IMG/VR virus record: IMGVR_UViG_3300005529_001109
Span: 1-29,031 of that record
Origin: a virus
DNA: 29,031 nt
Reading direction: 5' to 3' (one strand)
Every line of letters starts with the position of its first letter. Position 1 is the first letter of the stretch. Below the pieces are notes generated by a model that saw nothing but the letters and a program-made list of their open reading frames with translations, did no database searches and was not told where the DNA came from. Below are positions 6,642 through 27,727 of this stretch, one piece after another. Both the position numbers and the translations under genes were made by a program.

Positions 6642-6778
6642 AAACCAGCAATGCAAAGCAACGCCGCCGGCGCGCAAAGGCCATGCGCCTTTTGCACCGC
6701 AGCGGCGAGCGTCAATGCCGGCTCCTGCTCCTGATCCGCGACAACCCGGAGATGGAGCATCTCTATTACCGCCGATGA
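6638..6778 (+). CDS. Very small basic protein
   Basis: This 46-residue Arg/Lys-rich peptide (QRRRRAKAMRLLHR) is linked to both neighbours by ATGA overlaps, which is the main evidence that it is translated. Its high charge suggests nucleic-acid binding, but no domain is visible. The longer in-frame reading from 6593 is rejected because it lies within the previous gene. Confidence 0.55.
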   Translation: MKTSNAKQRRRRAKAMRLLHRSGERQCRLLLLIRDNPEMEHLYYRR

Positions 6779-7101
6779 GCCCGATCGATTACCGCAACGC
6801 CACTTTCGAGAGCCTGCGCGAGCGCCTGCACGGGCTGCGTTACCTTGTGCTCGAGGCGTGGCGCGTGCACGGCCCCGGCACCACGCGCGAGGTCGCCGAG
6901 CGCGCGCACATGGACATTCTCACATTTCGCCCGCGCACTACCGAGCTGGTGCAGCTCGGCTTTGTGCACCTGGTAGATGAAGAGCGCGGCGGCACCGAGG
7001 GCCGCTACGAAGCACTGAGCGATGAGCAGGCCCGCTCCATTTTCGAGCATCGCCGGCACGAGGCGATCCATGGCTTTCAACCGGAGCTGAATTTAAAATG
7101 A
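6775..7101 (+). CDS. Winged-helix DNA-binding protein
   Basis: The 108-residue product has a winged-helix layout: a helix (YLVLEAWRVHGPGTTREVAERA), a recognition helix (LTFRPRTTELVQLG) and a wing (VHLVDEERGGTEGRYEAL). It is probably a transcription regulator of the phage middle genes, although the target is unknown. The start at 6775 forms an ATGA overlap with the previous gene, and its stop overlaps the next start. Confidence 0.75.
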   Translation: MSPIDYRNATFESLRERLHGLRYLVLEAWRVHGPGTTREVAERAHMDILTFRPRTTELVQLGFVHLVDEERGGTEGRYEALSDEQARSIFEHRRHEAIHGFQPELNLK

Positions 7102-8240
7102 GCACGCAAACGAAAATCGAATGGTGCGACAACACGTTTAACCCGTGGATCGGCTGCACGAAGGTGGATGAGCTGTGCGCGCACTGCTACGCGGAGACAC
7201 GCGACAAGCGGCACCTGATCGAGAAGGTGGATCATTGGGGAAAAGGCGCGCCACGGCTGCGCACCAGCGCCGCGAACTGGCGGCTGCCGTTGAAGTGGAA
7301 CTCAACGAAGATTTGCGAGAAATGTAAGACGGCTCTGCGGCTAAATGTGTTGTCGTGCTCATGCGGCGGCGTAACCACGACCGGGCCGGAGGTCACGTTC
7401 ACCTTTCGCCGCCCGCGCGTTTTCTGCGCGTCGCTGGCCGATTGGCTCGATGACGAGGTGCCGATCGAATGGCTGGCCGATCTGCTCGCGCTCATCCACG
7501 CCACGCCGAATCTCGACTGGCTGCTGCTCACCAAAAGGCCGGAGAATTGGATGTCGCGACTCGTGAAGGCAATGAAGCATAACGAGGACGCTGGCGGTGC
7601 GTTGGAATTGCACACGTGGCTTCTTGACTGGGTGACGAGCAAGTCAATTGGAGCGGCACCGACAAACGTCTGGATCGGCACGAGCGTTGGCACGCAAAAG
7701 AGCGCCGATTTGCGCATCCCGCAACTGCTGCAAATCCCAGCGAAAATCCGTTTCCTGAGCTGCGAGCCGCTGCTCGGGCCGGTGCGGCTCATTGGTGCTA
7801 CAGAAACGCTGCCTTATGAGTTTGCTGCGACGGGTATGGGGTGGAGCGATTCAAACGTGCAATATGAACGCCTCGCGGAGCCAGGTATTCATTGGCTGAT
7901 CTGCGGCGGAGAATCCGGCGCGCACGCCCGCCCGATGCACCCCGACTGGGCGCGCTCGCTCCGCGACCAATGCGCCGCTGCCGGCGTCCCGTTTTTCTTC
8001 AAGCAATGGGGTGAGTTTGCCCCCTCATGCGCGCAATATCCGCAGAACGAAAGCGAGCACTGGGAGGCCGAACGAGCAGGCAATTATGGCGACATCGCTT
8101 TGGAACCGGACGGGACGATCGCAGAAGGCTACCAGCCTATCTCGAAGCGCACATGGCTCATGAATCGCATCGGCAAAAAAGCCGCAGGCCGCGCGCTCGA
8201 CGGCATCGAGCACAACGCTTTCCCGGGAGAACCGAAATGA
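7098..8240 (+). CDS. Gp37/Gp68 family protein (DUF5131), radical-SAM-like
   Basis: The 380-residue protein matches the phage Gp37/Gp68 (DUF5131) family. Residues 6-30 hold KIEWCDNTFNPWIGC with a Cys20-x6-Cys27-x2-Cys30 triad, followed by WLLLTKRPENW, FLSCEPLLG, ICGGESGAHARPM and PFFFKQWGE. The cysteine triad and barrel-like order suggest an iron-sulfur, radical-SAM-type enzyme. The substrate is unknown. An extra four-cysteine knuckle (Cys73, Cys76, Cys87, Cys89) is inserted after the first strands and may be a zinc ribbon. It overlaps both neighbouring genes. Confidence 0.88.
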   Translation: MSTQTKIEWCDNTFNPWIGCTKVDELCAHCYAETRDKRHLIEKVDHWGKGAPRLRTSAANWRLPLKWNSTKICEKCKTALRLNVLSCSCGGVTTTGPEVTFTFRRPRVFCASLADWLDDEVPIEWLADLLALIHATPNLDWLLLTKRPENWMSRLVKAMKHNEDAGGALELHTWLLDWVTSKSIGAAPTNVWIGTSVGTQKSADLRIPQLLQIPAKIRFLSCEPLLGPVRLIGATETLPYEFAATGMGWSDSNVQYERLAEPGIHWLICGGESGAHARPMHPDWARSLRDQCAAAGVPFFFKQWGEFAPSCAQYPQNESEHWEAERAGNYGDIALEPDGTIAEGYQPISKRTWLMNRIGKKAAGRALDGIEHNAFPGEPK

Positions 8241-9493: not shown

Positions 9494-9780
9494 AACTGGA
9501 AACCGAGATCACCGCCGAGTTGCACGCGGAGATGCTCGCCGCGCTGCTGAGCTACCGCCGAGAGCCGATCGCGATCGACGTCTCGACCCCGCAGCTTTTC
9601 GCGCTGGCGCTGCGCAACGAACGGATCCGCACCGCGCAATGCCTGGACAAACTTTTTGAGATCATGAAACGCGGCCGGAAACCGGCGCTCGACTGCGAGG
9701 TGATCGATCGCGTCGAGAGCGTGCGCCGCCTTTTCCTCGAGAACGAACAATCGGAACCCGGAGTGCTCAACCCCTCATGA
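9490..9780 (+). CDS. Hypothetical helical protein
   Basis: The 96-residue product is predicted to be mainly helical and has no recognisable motif. It is linked by ATGA to the genes on either side, so it is probably translated as part of the early operon. No function is proposed. Confidence 0.65.
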   Translation: MKLETEITAELHAEMLAALLSYRREPIAIDVSTPQLFALALRNERIRTAQCLDKLFEIMKRGRKPALDCEVIDRVESVRRLFLENEQSEPGVLNPS

Positions 9781-10175
9781 AACCGCCGTCCTCAGAAGTC
9801 ACCGTTTACCCCGTGGGAATCAAGGTCAAGGTCGCGCCGGACGATCAGCTCACGCTCTGGCCCGATCATCTGCCGGTGCCGGAGATCGGCGTGTTTGAAT
9901 GGGTGGCGCAGGGCGACGGCAATTACAAGCCGATGATCCGCCTCCACCCGAAGCTGGTGCGCATGGGCGAATCGACGATCAAGGAGCTCGGCCTCGGCGT
10001 GAGCTACAACAGCCTGCGCCGGCTGATGACCGGCGGTTTTGTGCGTTACGTGCAGGTGACGCCCGGCAATTACGCGGTCGATTTGCAGAGCTTTTACCAG
10101 CACATCGCGAAGGTCAAAGCCGACCCCGATTTCTGGACCGGCAAAAACCTCAAGAAATACATGGAGGCGATCTGA
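9777..10175 (+). CDS. Putative helix-turn-helix protein at the end of the early operon
   Basis: The 132-residue protein has a C-terminal stretch (VSYNSLRRLMTGGFVRYVQVTPGNYAVD, read in pieces) that looks like a helix-turn-helix with a wing, as in excisionase-like proteins. It is the last gene before the integron-like segment. Its stop codon (10173-10175) lies within the R''-like core of the first attC-like site, an arrangement common for cassette genes. However, it overlaps the previous gene by ATGA and has no cassette-type 5' boundary, so I treat it as a phage gene. Confidence 0.7.
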   Translation: MKPPSSEVTVYPVGIKVKVAPDDQLTLWPDHLPVPEIGVFEWVAQGDGNYKPMIRLHPKLVRMGESTIKELGLGVSYNSLRRLMTGGFVRYVQVTPGNYAVDLQSFYQHIAKVKADPDFWTGKNLKKYMEAI

Positions 10176-11466: not shown

Positions 11467-12454
11467 GAAAAAAGCCGGGTTGCTGGCGAAGTTTCGCGAG
11501 ATGGCGGCGCTCGATGAGTTGTCGAAAAACACGATCGATACCTACACGTGCTGGTTGCGGCAATTCGCGGCTTACACGCGCAAAGGCGCGGCTTCGTGGT
11601 CGGGCGCGGATGTCTCGGCGTTCATCCATTGGATGCACCGCGAGCGCTATTCGTCGGCGTCGCGCAAGCAGGCTCTCTGCGCGATCATTTACGCCTTCAA
11701 ACGCGTGCTGCAAATCGATCCGGGCCGGTTCGATCTGCCGCCGATGCCGCACGAGAAAAAGAAGCTCAAGATTATCCCGACTCGCAGCGAGCTTTCGACT
11801 TTGTTCACGCACCTGCGCGGACGCGACTGGCTCATGGCCCAGCTTCTTTACGGCTCGCTCTTGCGGGTCTCGGAATGCTGCATGTTGCGCGTGAAAGACA
11901 TTGATTTTGAAAATGGAAAGATCGATATCCATTCCGGCAAAGGCGACAAGGATCGCAAGACCTGGCTGCCTGAATCGCTCATCGCTCCGCTGCGCAAATG
12001 GATGGAATGGCGAGCGGCACTGCACCAGTGGGATCTCGGGCAGGGCCACGGCTGCGTGGAATTGCCGGGAAGGCTCGCGCGCAAATATCCAAGCCGCACG
12101 CGCGAACTCGGCTGGCAATATGTGTTCCCCTCGCAGATCGTGCAGCCGGATGGAACGCGCTGGCATACCACGCCGGAGTCTTTCCAAAAATCGCTCCGCA
12201 AAGCGCGCGCGGCGGCTGGGATCATCAAGGATTTAACGCCGCACACGTTGCGTCATGCTGGGGCGACGCACGGGCTGCGCACGCCGGGCAACGACATCGA
12301 GATCATCCGCGAAACACTCGGGCACACGAATCTTGAAACGACGCAGATTTACATTCATGCCGACGAAGCCGGGGGCGTGAGCCCGCTGGATGTGGGAGTT
12401 TCGCTGGCGCGTCCTGCCCTGCCGCCGCGCCGCATCTATCAACTCCATGGCTGA
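11459..12454 (+). CDS. intI: Integron-type integrase (IntI-like tyrosine recombinase)
   Basis: The 331-residue tyrosine recombinase has an N-terminal core-binding domain (about residues 18-90) and a catalytic domain with R136 (GSLLRVSEC), K164 (GKGDKDR), H262/R265 (PHTLRHAGATH), H289 (LGHTN) and nucleophile Y298. Residues about 190-225 (LPGRLARKYPSRTRELGW) match the extra helix region that separates IntI from XerC/D. Size is close to IntI1 (337). A strong AGGAGG ribosome site precedes the start. It overlaps the cassette 3 gene and the head gene by eight bases each. It should recombine the adjacent attC sites; activity is inferred. Confidence 0.87.
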   Translation: MSEKKAGLLAKFREMAALDELSKNTIDTYTCWLRQFAAYTRKGAASWSGADVSAFIHWMHRERYSSASRKQALCAIIYAFKRVLQIDPGRFDLPPMPHEKKKLKIIPTRSELSTLFTHLRGRDWLMAQLLYGSLLRVSECCMLRVKDIDFENGKIDIHSGKGDKDRKTWLPESLIAPLRKWMEWRAALHQWDLGQGHGCVELPGRLARKYPSRTRELGWQYVFPSQIVQPDGTRWHTTPESFQKSLRKARAAAGIIKDLTPHTLRHAGATHGLRTPGNDIEIIRETLGHTNLETTQIYIHADEAGGVSPLDVGVSLARPALPPRRIYQLHG

Positions 12455-15400
12455 TTTCCTTTTTAAACCGAGCCCGCACAAGCAGGCGGCGGAGTTCATC
12501 GCATCGAAGCCGGTCGTCTCGCGCGAGGTTTTCAGCAAGCTCCTGCCCGAGCTGCGGGCGCGGGCGTTCGTGATCTCCGGCGTCGAGGCCGCGAACGTCG
12601 TGCAAGGCATCCGCGACCGGATCGCGGAGCTGCCGCAGGGCGCGAACTGGGATGACGTGAAGGATGATCTCGTGGCCGAGCTGCATCCGTTTTTGCGCAA
12701 TGAAGACGACCCGGAAAACACCGTGGCCGCCGAGCGCCGGGCCGAGCTGCTCCTGCGCACGCACGGCTTCCAGGCTTACCAGGCGAGCGCGTATGAGGTG
12801 ATGGACCGCCAGCGCGATGTGCTGCCGTATTGGCAATACCACAGCATGGGCGACTCGCACGTGCGGCCCACGCACGCCGCGCTCAACGGCGTGGTGCTGC
12901 CGGCGGATCACGAGTTTTGGCGCACGCATTTTCCGCCGTGGGATTACGGTTGCCGCTGTCAAATTATCCCGATCTCACAGGTGGACGTGGATGAAATCGC
13001 GGCACGCGACGCGCAGAAAAACCCCGATAACCGCAGCGTGCTCGACCCCGACGCGCAGGCACAGCTCAGCTACCCGACGCGCCGGCTGGTGCGCAATGGC
13101 GTGAGCTACTACATGGCCGCGCCGATCGAGGAAAACAAACCGGGCGCATTCTACTGGCACCCCGGCGACCTCCGGATCCCGCTCGAGGAATTAAAAGGCC
13201 ACTACGACGCGCAGACGTGGAGCGATTTCCAGGGCTGGGCGAAAAAGACGCGGATCCCCGACGTCAATAAAACCGTGTGGGGCTGGCTCGGCGGCTCGGT
13301 CGAATGGCCGGAGCTCGATGAGCTTTCAAAAGTAAAACGCCTGGGCGGATCCACCGGCGCCGAGCTGATGCGCGATGGCGAGGGCCGGAAGTTCGTGCTC
13401 AAGCGCGGCGCGAGCGCGGACCATCTCAATGAGGAAGCGGCCGCGGACCAGGCTTATCTCGCCGCCGGCTTGAACGTGCCGAAGATGAAGATCTACACCA
13501 CGCCGGCCGGCCCGGTGAAGCTCGCCAAATACATCGAGGGCACCACGCTCCAGAGCTATCTCGCAAAGGCGACGGCGGAGGAAGCCGCACTCGCGATCGC
13601 GAAGGTGCAGAGCGGCTTTGTGGCCGATGCGCTCTTTGCCAATTACGACGTGGTGGGGCTCGACCTGGACAATATCCTGATCGACAAAACGGGGCAGGTC
13701 TGGCGCATCGACAATGGCGGCAGCTTCCGCTTTCGTGCGCGTGGCGGCGCGAAAACCGGCTGGGGGCCGAAGGTCACCGAGTTGCAGACGATGCGCGATG
13801 CGAAGATCAACCCGAGCGCCGCGCGCGTGTTTGGCTCGATCACCGACACGGAGATCCGCCGGCAGATCGGCGAGCTGATGGTAAAGCGCGAAGCGATCCT
13901 CGCGGCGGTGCCGCACGAGCTGCGCGACGTCCTCGCGAAACGGTTTGAAAACCTCGAGGAAATGCTCGCGCCGTCCGGTGGCGATTTTGCGAACGAAGTG
14001 GTCGAGAGCCGGATCGTCGGCAAAGTGAGCAAGCGCGACCGGGGCGACATCGAAAATACGCAGGTGCTTTTCTGGCAGGAAACCGGATCGAGCGGCAGCC
14101 ATGTCACACGCGCGAAACTCAAGCTCACCGAGGCGGGATCCGCGCGGGTGATGGAGCGGCTCGCCGCCAGCCTGCCATCGGTGCCGGCGGGCGTGGCGAA
14201 GGCCGCGACCGATGCGTATTGGCCCGGCATCCTCGATGCGCTCAAGACCGTGAACCAGCATGCGGGCGATGGCGCCTACAACATGGCGAAGCTGGCGAAA
14301 CTCGATGAGATCAAGGCCAAGCTCACCGCGCTGAAAAAAGATGCCGCGCTGAAAAAACATTACCTCGGGATCATCGACGGCATCGAGAAAGCGAAAGCGG
14401 CGAAAGTGAAGACGCCGATGTTTGCCGCCTACGTGCCGAAGGCAAAAGCGCCGCCGGTTGCCGCCGCGCGCGAATTTCAAATCAAGCGCGGGCATGTGCC
14501 GTATCTCAGCAAAACCACCGAGCGCGGCCGTGCGCGCGAGGGCGATCAATCGATCTACCAGCACGACGCTTATTTGATCGATCTCGGCGGCAGCAAAATC
14601 AAGCTGGTGCCGTTTAAGGAAAGCAACGGGGCGGACTTCAACGCGCCTTACGCGCTGCGCGGTTACGTGGAAGTGCTGCACCCGGCGGAGAGCTCGGAAA
14701 AAACGATCGGCGACATGCTCGAGCATCTCGCGAAGATCGGCATCGACACCGAACCGGCGAACGATGCGTATGCCGAGCAGCTCTATTTGCGCAAAGGCAT
14801 GCAGATCCGCACCGATGTTTTCACGCCGGAAAAATTGCAGGCGGCCGACGCCGTGCTCGCCTCGGCCAAAAACGATGCGGAGAAAGTGGCCGCGCTCAAG
14901 GAAATGGTGAAAAAGGAAATGGGGATCGATCTGCCCGAGCGCATCACGCCGGACTACGATCCGCGCGGGCACGCCAATTCCTTCGGCCAGGGCTGGGTGC
15001 GCACCGAGCGCTGGGATCTGCCGCGCGCGCAGGTGGAAAAGGAGATGAAGGATTACCGGTTGCACCACAGCTCCGCCACGCCGCTGCCCGAGCTGGTCGA
15101 TTCCATTCTCAATGGCGGCGGTGATTTCACCGCGACCACCGAGCGGCTGCGCAAGGGCATCGCGATCAATCGCGGCATGTCGCCGCAGGCCGATCTCGAC
15201 ACCGGCGGCGCCAATTACCTTTTCACCCGCATCCAGGGCAAGGCGAAGGCGCTCAAAAGCACCGGCATCAATTTCAAGATCGGCCTCCTCTCGCGGCAGG
15301 ATGCGTTTAGTTTTAACAGCGACCGGTTCGGCAATGTGAAGGATGCGAGCGCGTATGCGGCGCGCGCGAAAACGATCGCCGATCTCAAGCAGTGGTCGAA

Positions 15401-15569
15401 GGCGGGCGGCAATGAGACGATTTTAAAATGGGGCGTGCCGTTCCTGGATGAAGTCGATTCGATCGTGTGCGGCAGTGACGCGCAGCGCAAAGCGGTGCTC
15501 GATGTGTTTGCCCGGCATGGCTACGATGCACTGCCAGATGGCCGCAAAATCACGGAGATCCTCAAATGA
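12447..15569 (+). CDS. Mu gpF-like head morphogenesis protein fused to kinase-like and ART-like domains
   Basis: The 1040-residue protein starts with an SPP1 gp7/Mu gpF domain (residues 1-190, with SHVRPTHAALNG and WDYGCRCQIIPIS), which helps assemble the portal-proximal head. A kinase-like domain follows (about 295-515), with K319 (KFVLKRG), D406/D408-N409 (GLDLDNILID) and D422 (WRIDNGGSF) in positions of the HipA/PI-kinase-type lysine, catalytic and metal-binding residues. After a helical linker, the C-terminus (about 900-1040) has INRGMS and TGGANYLFTRIQ, suggestive of an ADP-ribosyltransferase-like fold. Such fusions are known as polyvalent proteins, which are packaged and delivered with DNA. 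Ordinary gpF is about 400 residues. Confidence 0.85.
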   Translation: MADFLFKPSPHKQAAEFIASKPVVSREVFSKLLPELRARAFVISGVEAANVVQGIRDRIAELPQGANWDDVKDDLVAELHPFLRNEDDPENTVAAERRAELLLRTHGFQAYQASAYEVMDRQRDVLPYWQYHSMGDSHVRPTHAALNGVVLPADHEFWRTHFPPWDYGCRCQIIPISQVDVDEIAARDAQKNPDNRSVLDPDAQAQLSYPTRRLVRNGVSYYMAAPIEENKPGAFYWHPGDLRIPLEELKGHYDAQTWSDFQGWAKKTRIPDVNKTVWGWLGGSVEWPELDELSKVKRLGGSTGAELMRDGEGRKFVLKRGASADHLNEEAAADQAYLAAGLNVPKMKIYTTPAGPVKLAKYIEGTTLQSYLAKATAEEAALAIAKVQSGFVADALFANYDVVGLDLDNILIDKTGQVWRIDNGGSFRFRARGGAKTGWGPKVTELQTMRDAKINPSAARVFGSITDTEIRRQIGELMVKREAILAAVPHELRDVLAKRFENLEEMLAPSGGDFANEVVESRIVGKVSKRDRGDIENTQVLFWQETGSSGSHVTRAKLKLTEAGSARVMERLAASLPSVPAGVAKAATDAYWPGILDALKTVNQHAGDGAYNMAKLAKLDEIKAKLTALKKDAALKKHYLGIIDGIEKAKAAKVKTPMFAAYVPKAKAPPVAAAREFQIKRGHVPYLSKTTERGRAREGDQSIYQHDAYLIDLGGSKIKLVPFKESNGADFNAPYALRGYVEVLHPAESSEKTIGDMLEHLAKIGIDTEPANDAYAEQLYLRKGMQIRTDVFTPEKLQAADAVLASAKNDAEKVAALKEMVKKEMGIDLPERITPDYDPRGHANSFGQGWVRTERWDLPRAQVEKEMKDYRLHHSSATPLPELVDSILNGGGDFTATTERLRKGIAINRGMSPQADLDTGGANYLFTRIQGKAKALKSTGINFKIGLLSRQDAFSFNSDRFGNVKDASAYAARAKTIADLKQWSKAGGNETILKWGVPFLDEVDSIVCGSDAQRKAVLDVFARHGYDALPDGRKITEILK

Positions 15570-17111: not shown

Positions 17112-17178
17112 ACCCCTTTTCCACCCTTTCCACGGCTCTTAGACGCTGTGAAAAGTGCCGCTAACGTCGGCTCTCGTG
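17112..17178 (+). promoter_or_regulatory. Repeated leader element, copy 1
   Basis: A pyrimidine-rich tract is followed by CCACCCTTTCCACGGCTCTT and AGAC, almost identical to the copy at 26892. CACGGC can pair with GCTGTG around the loop TCTTAGAC. A weaker match continues to the start codon (GTG at 17176 here, ATG at 26960 in copy 2). No Shine-Dalgarno site is present. A structured translational or transcriptional control element is inferred. Confidence 0.7.
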
Positions 17179-18246
17179 ATTCGCAGCAAAACGCAACCGG
17201 TTCTCATCGGCCTCAGTGCCGCCCCGGTCCTCATCGCCCTCCACGCCGCCGCGCCGGCGTTCAGGGAACTGATCGCCTGCCAGGCCATCCCGAACGATGC
17301 GTTGCAAGCCGACGAGCTGCCGACACGGCTCAAGCTTTTCAACTGGGGCGAAAATAAAACGGCGACCAAGGGCACGTTCGTCGTCGGCCCGAAAACGCTC
17401 GCCTCGCTCGCCGCGAACCAGAAAGCGCATGGCTTCGATAAAGTCGCGCTCGATTTCAACCACAACTCGCTCAAGGGCCATCCGAATTTCAAACCCGATC
17501 CGCGCGAGGTGGCCGCCTACGGCACGCCGGTGGTGATCGAGGGCGAGGGCCTTTTCCTCGATGGGCTGAGCTACACGCCCAGCGGCAAAAAGTTTGCCCG
17601 CGAGTATGCCGATCTCTCGCCGACGCCGGCGCGCGACCCGGAGACGGGCGAAGTGATTTTTCTCCACAGCGTCGCGCTTTGCCCGCAGGGCGAGGTCGAG
17701 GGGCTGACCTTCCTTTCTGCCGATGTCCTCGGCGAAACCAAAACGCAAACCACACACAAAAAAGTAACCACCAAAGTCATGGACTTCAAAAAACTCCTCT
17801 GCGCAATTCTTTCACTCGACCCGGACACGGCGACCGACGAGGACATCCAGGCCGCCGCCGAGAAATACGGCAAAACCGAAAAGACGGAAGCCGGTGCTGA
17901 CAAAGCCGTCGAGGCGCTGAGCAAGGCGCTCAAGCCATTTGGCGATCAGCTCGTCGCGCTGCAAAGCCGCCTGGACAAACAGGACCGCGATAACCTGGTG
18001 GCGCTCGCGATCCGCGACGGCAAGGAAATCCCGAAGTCCGCGCTCGAGGGCGATACCGCCGTCAACAACGCGCAGCTCGCCGCGCTCATCGCGGGGCTGC
18101 CGGTCACCGTGCCGCTCTCGCGCCGCACGCCCGAGAACGTCATCGACCTTTCCGCCGGCAACGGCCCGATCAGCGCCGAGCAGGCCGCGATCAACCGCAA
18201 CCTCGGCATCAGCGACGACCAGTTCAAAAAGCATAACGCAAAATAA
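17176..18246 (+). CDS. Mu gpI-like head maturation protease/scaffold
   Basis: The product (356 residues from GTG 17176, or 363 from GTG 17155) has the Mu I protein layout. LKLFNWGENKTATKG and VALDFNHNSLKG fill the place of the protease Asp-His region. GLFLDGLSYTPSGKKFAREYADLSP and LHSVALCPQG follow. The C-terminal half is a helical, Glu/Lys-rich scaffold segment with a short QAAINRNLGISDDQF end. It should process and guide capsid assembly. The 17176 start is preferred by alignment of the upstream leader with the copy at 26892. Neither start has a ribosome site. Confidence 0.85.
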   Translation: MIRSKTQPVLIGLSAAPVLIALHAAAPAFRELIACQAIPNDALQADELPTRLKLFNWGENKTATKGTFVVGPKTLASLAANQKAHGFDKVALDFNHNSLKGHPNFKPDPREVAAYGTPVVIEGEGLFLDGLSYTPSGKKFAREYADLSPTPARDPETGEVIFLHSVALCPQGEVEGLTFLSADVLGETKTQTTHKKVTTKVMDFKKLLCAILSLDPDTATDEDIQAAAEKYGKTEKTEAGADKAVEALSKALKPFGDQLVALQSRLDKQDRDNLVALAIRDGKEIPKSALEGDTAVNNAQLAALIAGLPVTVPLSRRTPENVIDLSAGNGPISAEQAAINRNLGISDDQFKKHNAK

Positions 18247-22061: not shown

Positions 22062-22547
22062 ATGGACCCACTCACACCCGCCGCACTTCTCCAGTTCGTT
22101 TACGATCAACTCAAGCCATGGACCGATGCGCGCAAAGGCTTGCTCAGCCTCGCGGGCGATCCGGGCTATGTGCTCGAGGCGCTCGCGGATGGCCCGGCGA
22201 CCTTCCGCGTGATCCTCGCGTGGGCGGGCGATGAGGACCAGACCGGCGGCATCGAGCAGGCGGGCATTGTCACCAATCAATTTGAAGTGTGGCTGATCAA
22301 GGCGAAGGGAATGCAGCTCGATCCCGGCCTGCACTTGATCAAGGGCGAGCTGGCGTTTCTCGCGCTGCTGGGCGATCTGCGGCAGACGGTGCGCGCGATC
22401 CGGTTTCCGGAGGAAGTGACAAACGAGATCCCGCTTTACAAGGGCGCAAAGCAATTCGAGCCCGAGCTGGCGCTGCAACTGCCCACCACCGGCTACAAAA
22501 TGACCTTCGAGTTGATCGCCGCCATTCCCTACCTCGTGCTTTCGTAG
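22062..22547 (+). CDS. Putative tail terminator or minor tail protein
   Basis: The 161-residue protein (LLQFVYDQLKPWTDARKG ... FEVWLIKAKGMQLDPG ... LLGDLRQTVRAIRFPEE ... TGYKMTFELIAAI) resembles small alpha/beta tail-completion proteins in length and strand pattern. Its position between the chaperone and tape measure genes supports a tail role. The specific assignment is uncertain. The leader is AT-rich (TTTTTAAAAAT) without a ribosome site. Confidence 0.6.
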   Translation: MDPLTPAALLQFVYDQLKPWTDARKGLLSLAGDPGYVLEALADGPATFRVILAWAGDEDQTGGIEQAGIVTNQFEVWLIKAKGMQLDPGLHLIKGELAFLALLGDLRQTVRAIRFPEEVTNEIPLYKGAKQFEPELALQLPTTGYKMTFELIAAIPYLVLS

Positions 22548-22603
22548 CCACGGTTTCCGCGGCTCTTTGCCGCACCGTGCGCAATCCGCTTTTCTAAGCA
22601 GCC

Positions 22604-24202
22604 ATGAATCTCGCCGCCACAATGAGCCTCGACAATCGCGGGTTCATGGACCCGCTCAGCCGATCGCGCTCGGCGTTTGCGGGGATGCGCTCCGCGCTGG
22701 AAGGCCTCGCCGGCCCGCTCGCGGCGCTGGGCGTGAGTTTCGGCGCATTTAAATCGGTCGAGGGAATCGTGGAAGGTTTCAAGGGCGTTTTTGTGCTCGG
22801 CAAGGAACTCAAGGCGCAATCGGCCATCACCGGGCAGAGCATTCGCGACGTGGTGATCCTGCGCAAAGCTTACGATGAGGCCGGCATGGACGCGGGCTCG
22901 CTCACGGCGAATCTCTCGATGCTCCAGGCGGCGCTCGGCGGGGTGAATGAGGAGGGATTGCCGACCAAGCACATTTTCGAGCAGCTCGGGCTCGACATGG
23001 AAGCGCTTAAAAGCAAGCGCGCGATCGAGCAATTCGATGAAATCGCGAAGGCGATCGGCAACCTGGGCGATCAAAGCTCGAAGATGGCCGCCGTGCGCGG
23101 GATCTTTGGCCGGGCCGGCGCGCAAATGCTCGCGCTTTTTGCCAACCCGAAAGTGATCGAGGAGGCATCCGAGCTCGTCGGCAAGCAGGCGAACATTTTC
23201 CAGAAAAACGCGGAGACTTTTGCGAAGGTCACCAACGCGTTTGAGGCCGTGGGCACCAAGGTGCGCGGGATTTTCGTGGGCGCGGCGGCGGAAGCGGCCC
23301 CGGCGATCATGCCGATCCTCACGGCACTCCGCTCGATCGATACCGTGGGGATGTCGCAACGCCTCGGCGCGGTGCTGCGGCAGAGTGCACAGCTTTTGCA
23401 GGCCGCTTACAAGAGCGGCAACCTGAGCGAATTGATTTCCCTGAGCCTGACCGTGGGTTTTGAGAAAGCGGTGCCGAAAATCGGCTCGCTTTTGGTCAAT
23501 GCCTTCTCGGCGCCGATCGCTTATTTGCAGGCGGGACTGGAAAAAGCCGCGGAGCTCTGGAAAATCCGCACCAGCGGCGAAGGCGGGCTCTCGATGAAGG
23601 AAAAAAGCACGCTGCAAAACGCCTATCGCAATATCGACTCGCAACAGGCCGACGCTTCCGCCGCACTCGAGCGCGGCAACAAAGGACTCGCGAAGGAATT
23701 GATGCAAAGCGTCTCCGAATGGATCAAGGTGCGCGACGAGCTCGAGAACAAGGCCAACCTCGAGAAAAACCTCGAGGATATTCCTACGCGGATGAAGCGC
23801 ATCATGGGCGAAGGGGTGCAGTTCGATCTTTTCGGCCTCGGCAAGGGCAATGGAGCGAGCGCGGCGGAACGGACGCTCAGGGATTTGATGGCGCGTCTTT
23901 CGAAAAGCTTCGCGCCGCTCAATATCCCGATCGAAACCACGCCCGCGGCGGGCACGGCCGGTTTTGAAAACGTGAAGGACTACGGCGCCGGCAAGGCCGC
24001 GCGCAAGGGCCGCTTTGAAGATGGCGACAAACTCGCGCGGATCGGCCTGTTTGTCGGCGGCTCCGGCGGGCCCGCGCTCGAGCATGCGCGCAAAACCGCC
24101 GATAACACCACGAAACTGGTGGCGCTCACCGCACAGGTGCACGCGACCATCACCAACAGCATGCGGCAGCAACTCGAAAGCCTGCCAGCCTGGGGAATCT
24201 AA
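22604..24202 (+). CDS. Tail tape measure protein
   Basis: The 532-residue protein is helical with Ala/Gly-rich segments. A hydrophobic stretch lies at about residues 30-50 (GLAGPLAALGVSFGAF), followed by the typical LKAQSAITGQSIRDVVILRKAY and FGRAGAQMLALFANP blocks of tape measure proteins. A hydrophobic helix region near 290-310 and a coiled region at 360-400 follow. It sets tail length; 532 residues implies a short tail. It is the longest tail gene and directly follows the chaperone pair. Confidence 0.8.
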   Translation: MNLAATMSLDNRGFMDPLSRSRSAFAGMRSALEGLAGPLAALGVSFGAFKSVEGIVEGFKGVFVLGKELKAQSAITGQSIRDVVILRKAYDEAGMDAGSLTANLSMLQAALGGVNEEGLPTKHIFEQLGLDMEALKSKRAIEQFDEIAKAIGNLGDQSSKMAAVRGIFGRAGAQMLALFANPKVIEEASELVGKQANIFQKNAETFAKVTNAFEAVGTKVRGIFVGAAAEAAPAIMPILTALRSIDTVGMSQRLGAVLRQSAQLLQAAYKSGNLSELISLSLTVGFEKAVPKIGSLLVNAFSAPIAYLQAGLEKAAELWKIRTSGEGGLSMKEKSTLQNAYRNIDSQQADASAALERGNKGLAKELMQSVSEWIKVRDELENKANLEKNLEDIPTRMKRIMGEGVQFDLFGLGKGNGASAAERTLRDLMARLSKSFAPLNIPIETTPAAGTAGFENVKDYGAGKAARKGRFEDGDKLARIGLFVGGSGGPALEHARKTADNTTKLVALTAQVHATITNSMRQQLESLPAWGI

Positions 24203-26891: not shown

Positions 26892-26962
26892 TACCCTTTT
26901 TCCACCCTTTGCACGGCTCTTAGACCGTGCTGGCAGGTGTGCCTAGAGTCTGCGCGCACATG
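26892..26962 (+). promoter_or_regulatory. Repeated leader element, copy 2
   Basis: CCCTTTTTCCACCCTTTGCA and CGGCTCTTAGAC repeat the element at 17112. Here GCACGG pairs with CCGTGC around CTCTTAGA; the arms differ from copy 1 but still pair. The element fills the gap between the previous stop (26883) and the ATG at 26960. No Shine-Dalgarno site is visible. Confidence 0.7.
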
Positions 26963-27727
26963 GCCTTTGCAATTCTTTACGAGCTTTTTGTCCTCAAGGC
27001 CAAGGGATCGGTCGAGCCGCTGGTGGTTTCCAAGACCGACAAGACCGCGCTCGAGAAGCCGCAATGGATCCGCGGCGATGAATTTACCCTGCGCATTCAC
27101 CTGCTCGGGCCGGGCGACACGGAATTTTCTCCACTGGTGGGCGAGCAGATCGACGCGGGCGACCAGATCGTCTTTGCCGGAAAGCCGGCCGCCACACCGG
27201 AACAGACCGACGCGCTCTTTAGCGCGACACCATTCACCGAGGTGCTCAGCGGCGGGCAGTATTACTACGAGGCCACACTCGACCTGAGCGCCGACAATTT
27301 AAAAACCGCGATCGCGGCCACGGGCAATAACCAGCTCGCGGTGCTGTGCGACATCGAGATCGAGAACTCGGACAACTCCAGGCGCAAGACCTTCCAGTTT
27401 GGGGCAATCGTCCGCGCCCAGGCTTACAAGGGCACCGAGAGCGATCCCGGCACAGGCAATGTGCTTTACCCCGCGCCCGGCGCGCTCGCGCTGGTGACCG
27501 GTGTGCCGAATTTTTACGTGCTGATCACCGGCTTGACCGGCGGCGGCTCGACCAAGCTCGACGGCATCGCCACCACGGCGCTGGCAGCCGGCTATCTCGC
27601 CTGCGCGAAGATCAGCGGCAATCTCAAGTTTTACCAGCTCCAGGCCGGAGCGGCCGGCGCTGGCGACGTCGCGCCCGCCGACTACGACGCCGGCACCAAC
27701 AACAAGAAGTGGGTGCAGGTCCTGTGA
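26960..27727 (+). CDS. Hypothetical tail protein controlled by repeated leader
   Basis: The 255-residue protein (MAFAILYELFVLKAKGS) is beta-rich, with GPGDTEFSPLVGEQIDAG and FGAIVRAQAYKGTESDPG, then a Gly/Ala-rich C-terminal part of about 90 residues (TGGGSTKLDGIATTALAAG) typical of fibre connectors. A GTG at 26927 would add 11 residues, but the ATG at 26960 fits better with the leader alignment. No family is recognised; a baseplate or fibre-attachment role is inferred from position. Confidence 0.65.
   Translation: MAFAILYELFVLKAKGSVEPLVVSKTDKTALEKPQWIRGDEFTLRIHLLGPGDTEFSPLVGEQIDAGDQIVFAGKPAATPEQTDALFSATPFTEVLSGGQYYYEATLDLSADNLKTAIAATGNNQLAVLCDIEIENSDNSRRKTFQFGAIVRAQAYKGTESDPGTGNVLYPAPGALALVTGVPNFYVLITGLTGGGSTKLDGIATTALAAGYLACAKISGNLKFYQLQAGAAGAGDVAPADYDAGTNNKKWVQVL

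Follow-up and report, generated by a model that had tools for sequence, protein, structure and literature searches.

Tandem 9-bp direct repeats upstream of head and tail genes in a Mu-like prophage: candidate late promoters

Tandem direct-repeat activator sites next to the -35 element are known from promoters of the lambda CII and the PhoB/SARP type. In phage Mu, the late promoters lys, I, P and mom are activated by the C protein (PMC4461284), and Mor, the activator of middle transcription, has an inverted-repeat site that is centred at -43.5 and takes the place of the -35 element (PMC4390567). A TAnnnT motif about 12 bp upstream of the start codon has been described as a signature of leaderless bacterial genes (PMC3160421). 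In this study we analysed a stretch of viral DNA of 29,031 nucleotides (the window) in which a short repeat precedes one head gene and one tail-region gene. In our view both copies likely act as late promoters in a Mu-like phage, each composed of a tandem activator site, a degenerate -35 element and a TAnnnT -10 element, and giving rise to a late mRNA with no or nearly no leader. We found no description of such a promoter layout in the open-access literature.

According to this proposal a phage-encoded activator would bind the two 9-bp direct repeats at about -54 to -37 and would help the host's sigma70-type RNA polymerase at the degenerate -35 element (the TAG of TTAG). The -10 element would be TAnnnT, 17-18 bp from the -35 element, and transcription would start about at the start codon, so that the message would carry no or almost no leader and would need no Shine-Dalgarno (SD) sequence. 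The copy upstream of gene I would serve the head genes, and the copy upstream of gene f the last tail genes together with the lysis gene that overlaps the end of the fibre gene.

A repeat upstream of genes I and f

The window lies within a 111-kb contig of a 3.68-Mb genome. Judged by its gene content it is a Mu-like prophage, with a MuA-like transposase (phrog_310), a MuB-like protein (phrog_296), a Mu F-like protein, a phage virion morphogenesis protein, the gene I protease, a major head protein and a tape measure. The left prophage end seems to lie just past a repressor-like gene, with host-like genes from there on. Since a relative of the prophage is present in an Opitutaceae bacterium (L084), the window phage presumably has a host of Verrucomicrobiota type. 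Some other genes of the window were noted in passing. A tyrosine recombinase (PF00589, 11459-12454) is encoded directly 5' of the Mu F-like gene of this transposable phage and has relatives at a similar place in genomes G033 and G497. The Mu F-like head protein domain is part of a 1059-aa protein (12390-15569) whose long remainder has no Pfam match and which has long homologues in L084 and G254. A DUF5131 protein (PF07505, phrog_2045, 7098-8240) is kept in L084 and G497.

The original prediction had described a duplicated leader, and the duplication was borne out: 17112-17144 and 26893-26925 form a 33-bp repeat of 94% identity, the copies being 9.8 kb apart and directly 5' of head protease gene I and of tail-region gene f (Table 1). 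When the 100 bp upstream of gene I were compared with the rest of the window, the best ungapped match was the second copy, with a score of 56, the best score in 30 shuffles being 29. The repeat is far above chance. In the whole 3.68-Mb genome only the two copies contain CACGGCTCTTAGAC without mismatch. A degraded third copy (22539-22571), absent from the original prediction, lies 38 nt ahead of the tape-measure start; by sequence alone it is not above chance (14-mer with 3 mismatches, an equal number of matches in 29 of 100 shuffles), and it was retained because of its position and layout. Outside this genome, the exact 14-mer has 45 scattered matches in viral contigs, a number at or below expectation by a rough estimate, and the window's 22-mer is absent from them. 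The repeat region has no match among named phages, and no viral relatives were found with the protease and f as queries.

Table 1. Sites, associated genes and candidate regulators in the window
Feature	Positions	Strand	Remarks
Candidate regulator, weak winged-helix similarity	6775..7101	+	Sub-threshold match to PF25212 (E 6e-4)
Candidate late regulator, 132 aa, role putative	9777..10175	+	Conserved upstream of F gene
Pyrimidine-rich run 5' of site 1	17112..17120	+	Belongs to 33-bp repeat
Site 1, proposed activator site: CCACCCTTT CCACGGCTC, 9-bp direct repeats in tandem	17121..17138	+	Layout recurs in 5-6 related prophages
Site 1, TTAGAC, proposed degenerate -35	17139..17144	+	TAG conserved across sites; 17-bp spacer to -10
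Site 1, TAACGT, proposed -10 (TAnnnT)	17162..17167	+	AnnnT enriched at that offset among the sites
Gene I (head maturation protease), GTG 17176 as proposed start	17176..18246	+	PF10123 E 3.8e-24, phrog_328 E 7.8e-25
Site 3 (degraded), CCACGGTTT CCGCGGCTC, then TTTG 22566-22569, no clear -10	22548..22565	+	
Tape-measure-like gene, ATG 38 nt past TTTG	22604..24202	+	phrog_9483 E 9.5e-9
Pyrimidine-rich run 5' of site 2	26893..26901	+	Repeat comparison
Site 2, tandem 9-bp direct repeat CCACCCTTT GCACGGCTC	26902..26919	+	Same repeat layout
Site 2, TTAGAC, proposed degenerate -35	26920..26925	+	Site comparison
Site 2, TAGAGT, proposed -10, 18-bp spacer	26944..26949	+	Site comparison
Gene f, tail-region gene, ATG 26960	26960..27727	+	27-32% identical homologues at same place in relatives

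A common layout in related prophages

With the capsid protein as query, related prophages were found in G048, G033, G329, G222, G215, G254, G444, G497 and L084, along with more distant ones; some of these genomes are fragmented. It had been suggested beforehand to look for the motif in relatives, and some of these carry a repeat of their own at the same places, 5' of I and f. When the region 5' of I was compared in G048, G033 and G329, the top match came from the stretch 5' of the f homologue, with scores of 30, 39 and 41 versus shuffle maxima of 30, 27 and 29; the score in G048 merely equals its shuffle maximum, yet the match falls at the expected place. The letters of the repeat in these three genomes differ from those of the window, and the layout is common to all. 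G033 and G329 each have a third copy, on the other strand and 37 nt ahead of the first gene of an operon with lysis-like genes, terminase and portal. The homologue of that first gene in G048 is preceded, at 38 nt, by a weaker site in which AnnnT has an unchanged offset. In L084, GCGCCAAGCTCCCCA is common to three places; the best fit among them is the place before I. G713 has a fitting site before I. The 22-mer of G329 was found in a single contig, whose sites read as those of G329, and that of G048 in one close relative of G048. The layout was not seen in the more distant G497, G222, G215 and G254 or in Mu-like phages of Pseudomonas and Faecalibacterium; relatives at ~30% capsid identity, together with Mushu, LPB1 and B23, showed none, the I site of G713 excepted.

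Several features of these genomes were noted in passing. G329 apparently contains the same prophage twice (C9 at about 117000-133000 and C10 at about 16000-32500), with equal scores throughout. In the relatives the lysis, terminase and portal genes are encoded to the left of the repressor and on the other strand (G033:C38, G048:C6, G329:C9). The window phage has a similar lysis-like gene after the fibre gene, and its right end may be represented by a fragment with terminase and portal, found at the end of contig C19 (G000:C19:1-5246). Tandem 9-bp repeats of the AAGTCGGAC type occur at several places in the L140 and L135 prophages (G570, G726), including upstream of I; these AAGTCGGAC repeats are multi-copy, looked like another kind of repeat and were set aside.

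If the first T of TTAG is counted as 0, the layout that unites twelve sites from five phages consists of CA at -17/-16 and -8/-7 (the two 9-bp repeats) and TAG at 1-3. AnnnT with its A at +23 to +26 is present in nine of these twelve sites, the mean of shuffles being 1.5; none of 5000 shuffles reached nine, and none of 800 did so when the count was maximised over offsets. Twelve of the 14 sites (a set that includes G048 ter and G713 I) have their start codon between +37 and +40, start codons having been picked among alternatives in a few genes. The exceptions are the I site of uba, with its start at +51, and the f site of G048, with a start at +52 or +61 and no clear -10. Across phages about 20 bp separate (T)TAG from the TAnnnT box. 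These positions were derived from the supporting sites themselves; G048 ter and G713 I are exceptions, having been recognised later. A scan with the layout, trained on the known sites, gave all-nine matches at those sites only and nearly none in reversed sequence. A T-rich run is likewise found ahead of the I and ter sites of G033, and is not present at every site.

With the last T of the TAnnnT box taken as -7, transcription would start at about position 35-36 of the layout, adjoining the start codon. The first T of the box is 14 nt (site 1) and 16 nt (site 2) before the start, as in leaderless TA-led genes. The genes had been predicted to have no SD site, and indeed there is little complementarity to the anti-SD sequence at I and f (-1.7 and -2.4 kcal/mol). 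Most early genes score -6 to -13; weak values are also seen at several other late genes (T, 18325, 20367), and the tape-measure gene has almost no complementarity. A lack of SD sequences would be expected if the mRNA begins at or next to the start codon. The late mRNAs are probably leaderless or near-leaderless.

A late promoter was one of the options of the original prediction. The same genomic places in independent prophages, the copy at a divergent late operon, the fixed -10-like box and the fixed distance to the start codon all support it. The promoter reading is well supported by this comparison, from which we infer transcription, its start site, leaderlessness, lateness and dependence on an activator. 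A generic scan for the sigma70 consensus calls neither site 1 nor site 2.

As to the activator, two genes might be considered: the 132-aa candidate and the 6775-7101 gene, which is conserved beside it in relatives. An AlphaFold model of the former from two sequences (pLDDT 50) was too poor for a fold search. Both are conserved before the F gene in relatives, some of which are without the layout, so the two are no more than candidate activators. It might be possible, and we propose it only tentatively, that in Mu-like phages with hosts of Verrucomicrobiota type an undescribed family of activators reads two 9-bp direct repeats with phage-specific letters and directs the synthesis of leaderless late mRNAs.

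Hairpins, operators and leader length

The original prediction had placed a 6-base stem around a shared loop at both copies and had taken arm changes that keep pairing as a sign of selected structure. A 6-bp stem is present at each copy (CACGGC/GCTGTG in copy 1, GCACGG/CCGTGC in copy 2), but the two are in different registers. When the copies are aligned on TTAG, the centre of the stem is shifted by one base; in the register of copy 1 the second copy keeps 2 of 6 pairs, and in that of copy 2 the first keeps 3 of 6. The paired positions are thus not homologous, and the argument from compensating changes falls away. The best stem is no longer than in shuffles (p 0.26 for copy 1, 0.60 for copy 2, 0.75 for the third copy), and fold energies are not exceptional when the 3' half is shuffled (p 0.21, 0.14 and 0.20). 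Shuffling the whole stretch of 42-43 nt gives z values of -2.8 and -2.1 for copies 1 and 2. The hairpins are mildly stable, and their stability is no evidence of selection. In related sites no stem is kept at the homologous place: the I site of G048 has a strong stem (p 0.002) but at another position, and that of G756 has one at a similar place (p 0.06-0.08). Inverted repeats are not conserved across the sites, and neither the window copies nor the relatives have a conserved or covarying helix, as would be expected of a structured cis-regulatory RNA.

A structured 5' leader, acting as an RNA switch or translation enhancer through a hairpin around CTCTTAGA, is therefore very unlikely. It could draw on the nearly identical loops of the two window copies, on the z values of that short stretch and on the stem of G756, whereas the non-homologous pairing, the 3'-half shuffles and the relatives all speak against it. 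Rfam and tRNA scans of the whole window were empty. Moreover, at several sites the preceding gene stops about 7-11 bp away, which would leave scant room for a promoter of such a leader, and a box placed 12-16 nt ahead of the start codon is in keeping with a promoter. Direct repeats beside a -35 element could also bind a repressor, be it that of the phage or another one. That the sites are such operators and not activator sites appears improbable, since every copy heads a late operon and a 45-kb scan of the contig returned the three sites only, with none beside the repressor gene or in the early region.

More weight might be given to promoters of the described kind with a short ordinary leader, although this too is rather unlikely. 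The starts at +51 in uba and at +52 or +61 in G048 would leave leaders of about 15-25 nt, and some genes have alternative start codons; the narrow range of start positions in the other 12 sites and the lack of an SD sequence at the three window genes argue for leaderless messages. It is scarcely credible that the copies are due to chance or to a mobile repeat that multiplied inside a single phage. The two copies of the window alone could be a recent duplication, but other prophages have the same layout in different letters at the same two places.

Comparison with Mu and other systems

If the sites are late promoters, their layout allows late operons to be predicted in a little-studied group of transposable phages, and it suggests that the late messages of these phages bypass the SD step. 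It also points to an activator outside the Mor/C family whose recognition letters have diverged between phages under a constant layout.

The sites resemble leaderless TA-led bacterial genes (PMC3160421) in having TAnnnT about 12 bp before the start and no SD sequence. Here, however, the box is joined to an upstream tandem repeat and is found at late phage operons. From the lambda CII and PhoB/SARP type they differ in their period, which is 9 and not 10-11, and no homologue was identified. With Mu Pm and its activator Mor (PMC4390567) they share an activator site that lies immediately 5' of the -35 element and substitutes for it, with a centre that we place at about -45.5, whereas the Mor site has two inverted repeats within 16 bp.

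The closest likeness is to the late promoters of Mu. In position, the repeat site upstream of I is the counterpart of Mu P_I, and the site upstream of f, a tail gene past the tape measure, is probably that of P_P. By sequence the resemblance to P_I and P_P (PMC4461284) extends to a non-consensus -35 element and a sigma70-type -10 element, and it would further extend to one activator for several late operons. In contrast to Mu, direct repeats of 9 bp take the place of a dyad upstream of the -10 element, the messages are likely leaderless, and the Mor/C family (PF08765) has no match in G000, G033, G048 and G329, although a diverged homologue is possible. Because of the direct repeats and the lack of a PF08765 match in these four genomes, we regard the sites as Mu-like in function and as standing outside the Mor/C-dependent class.
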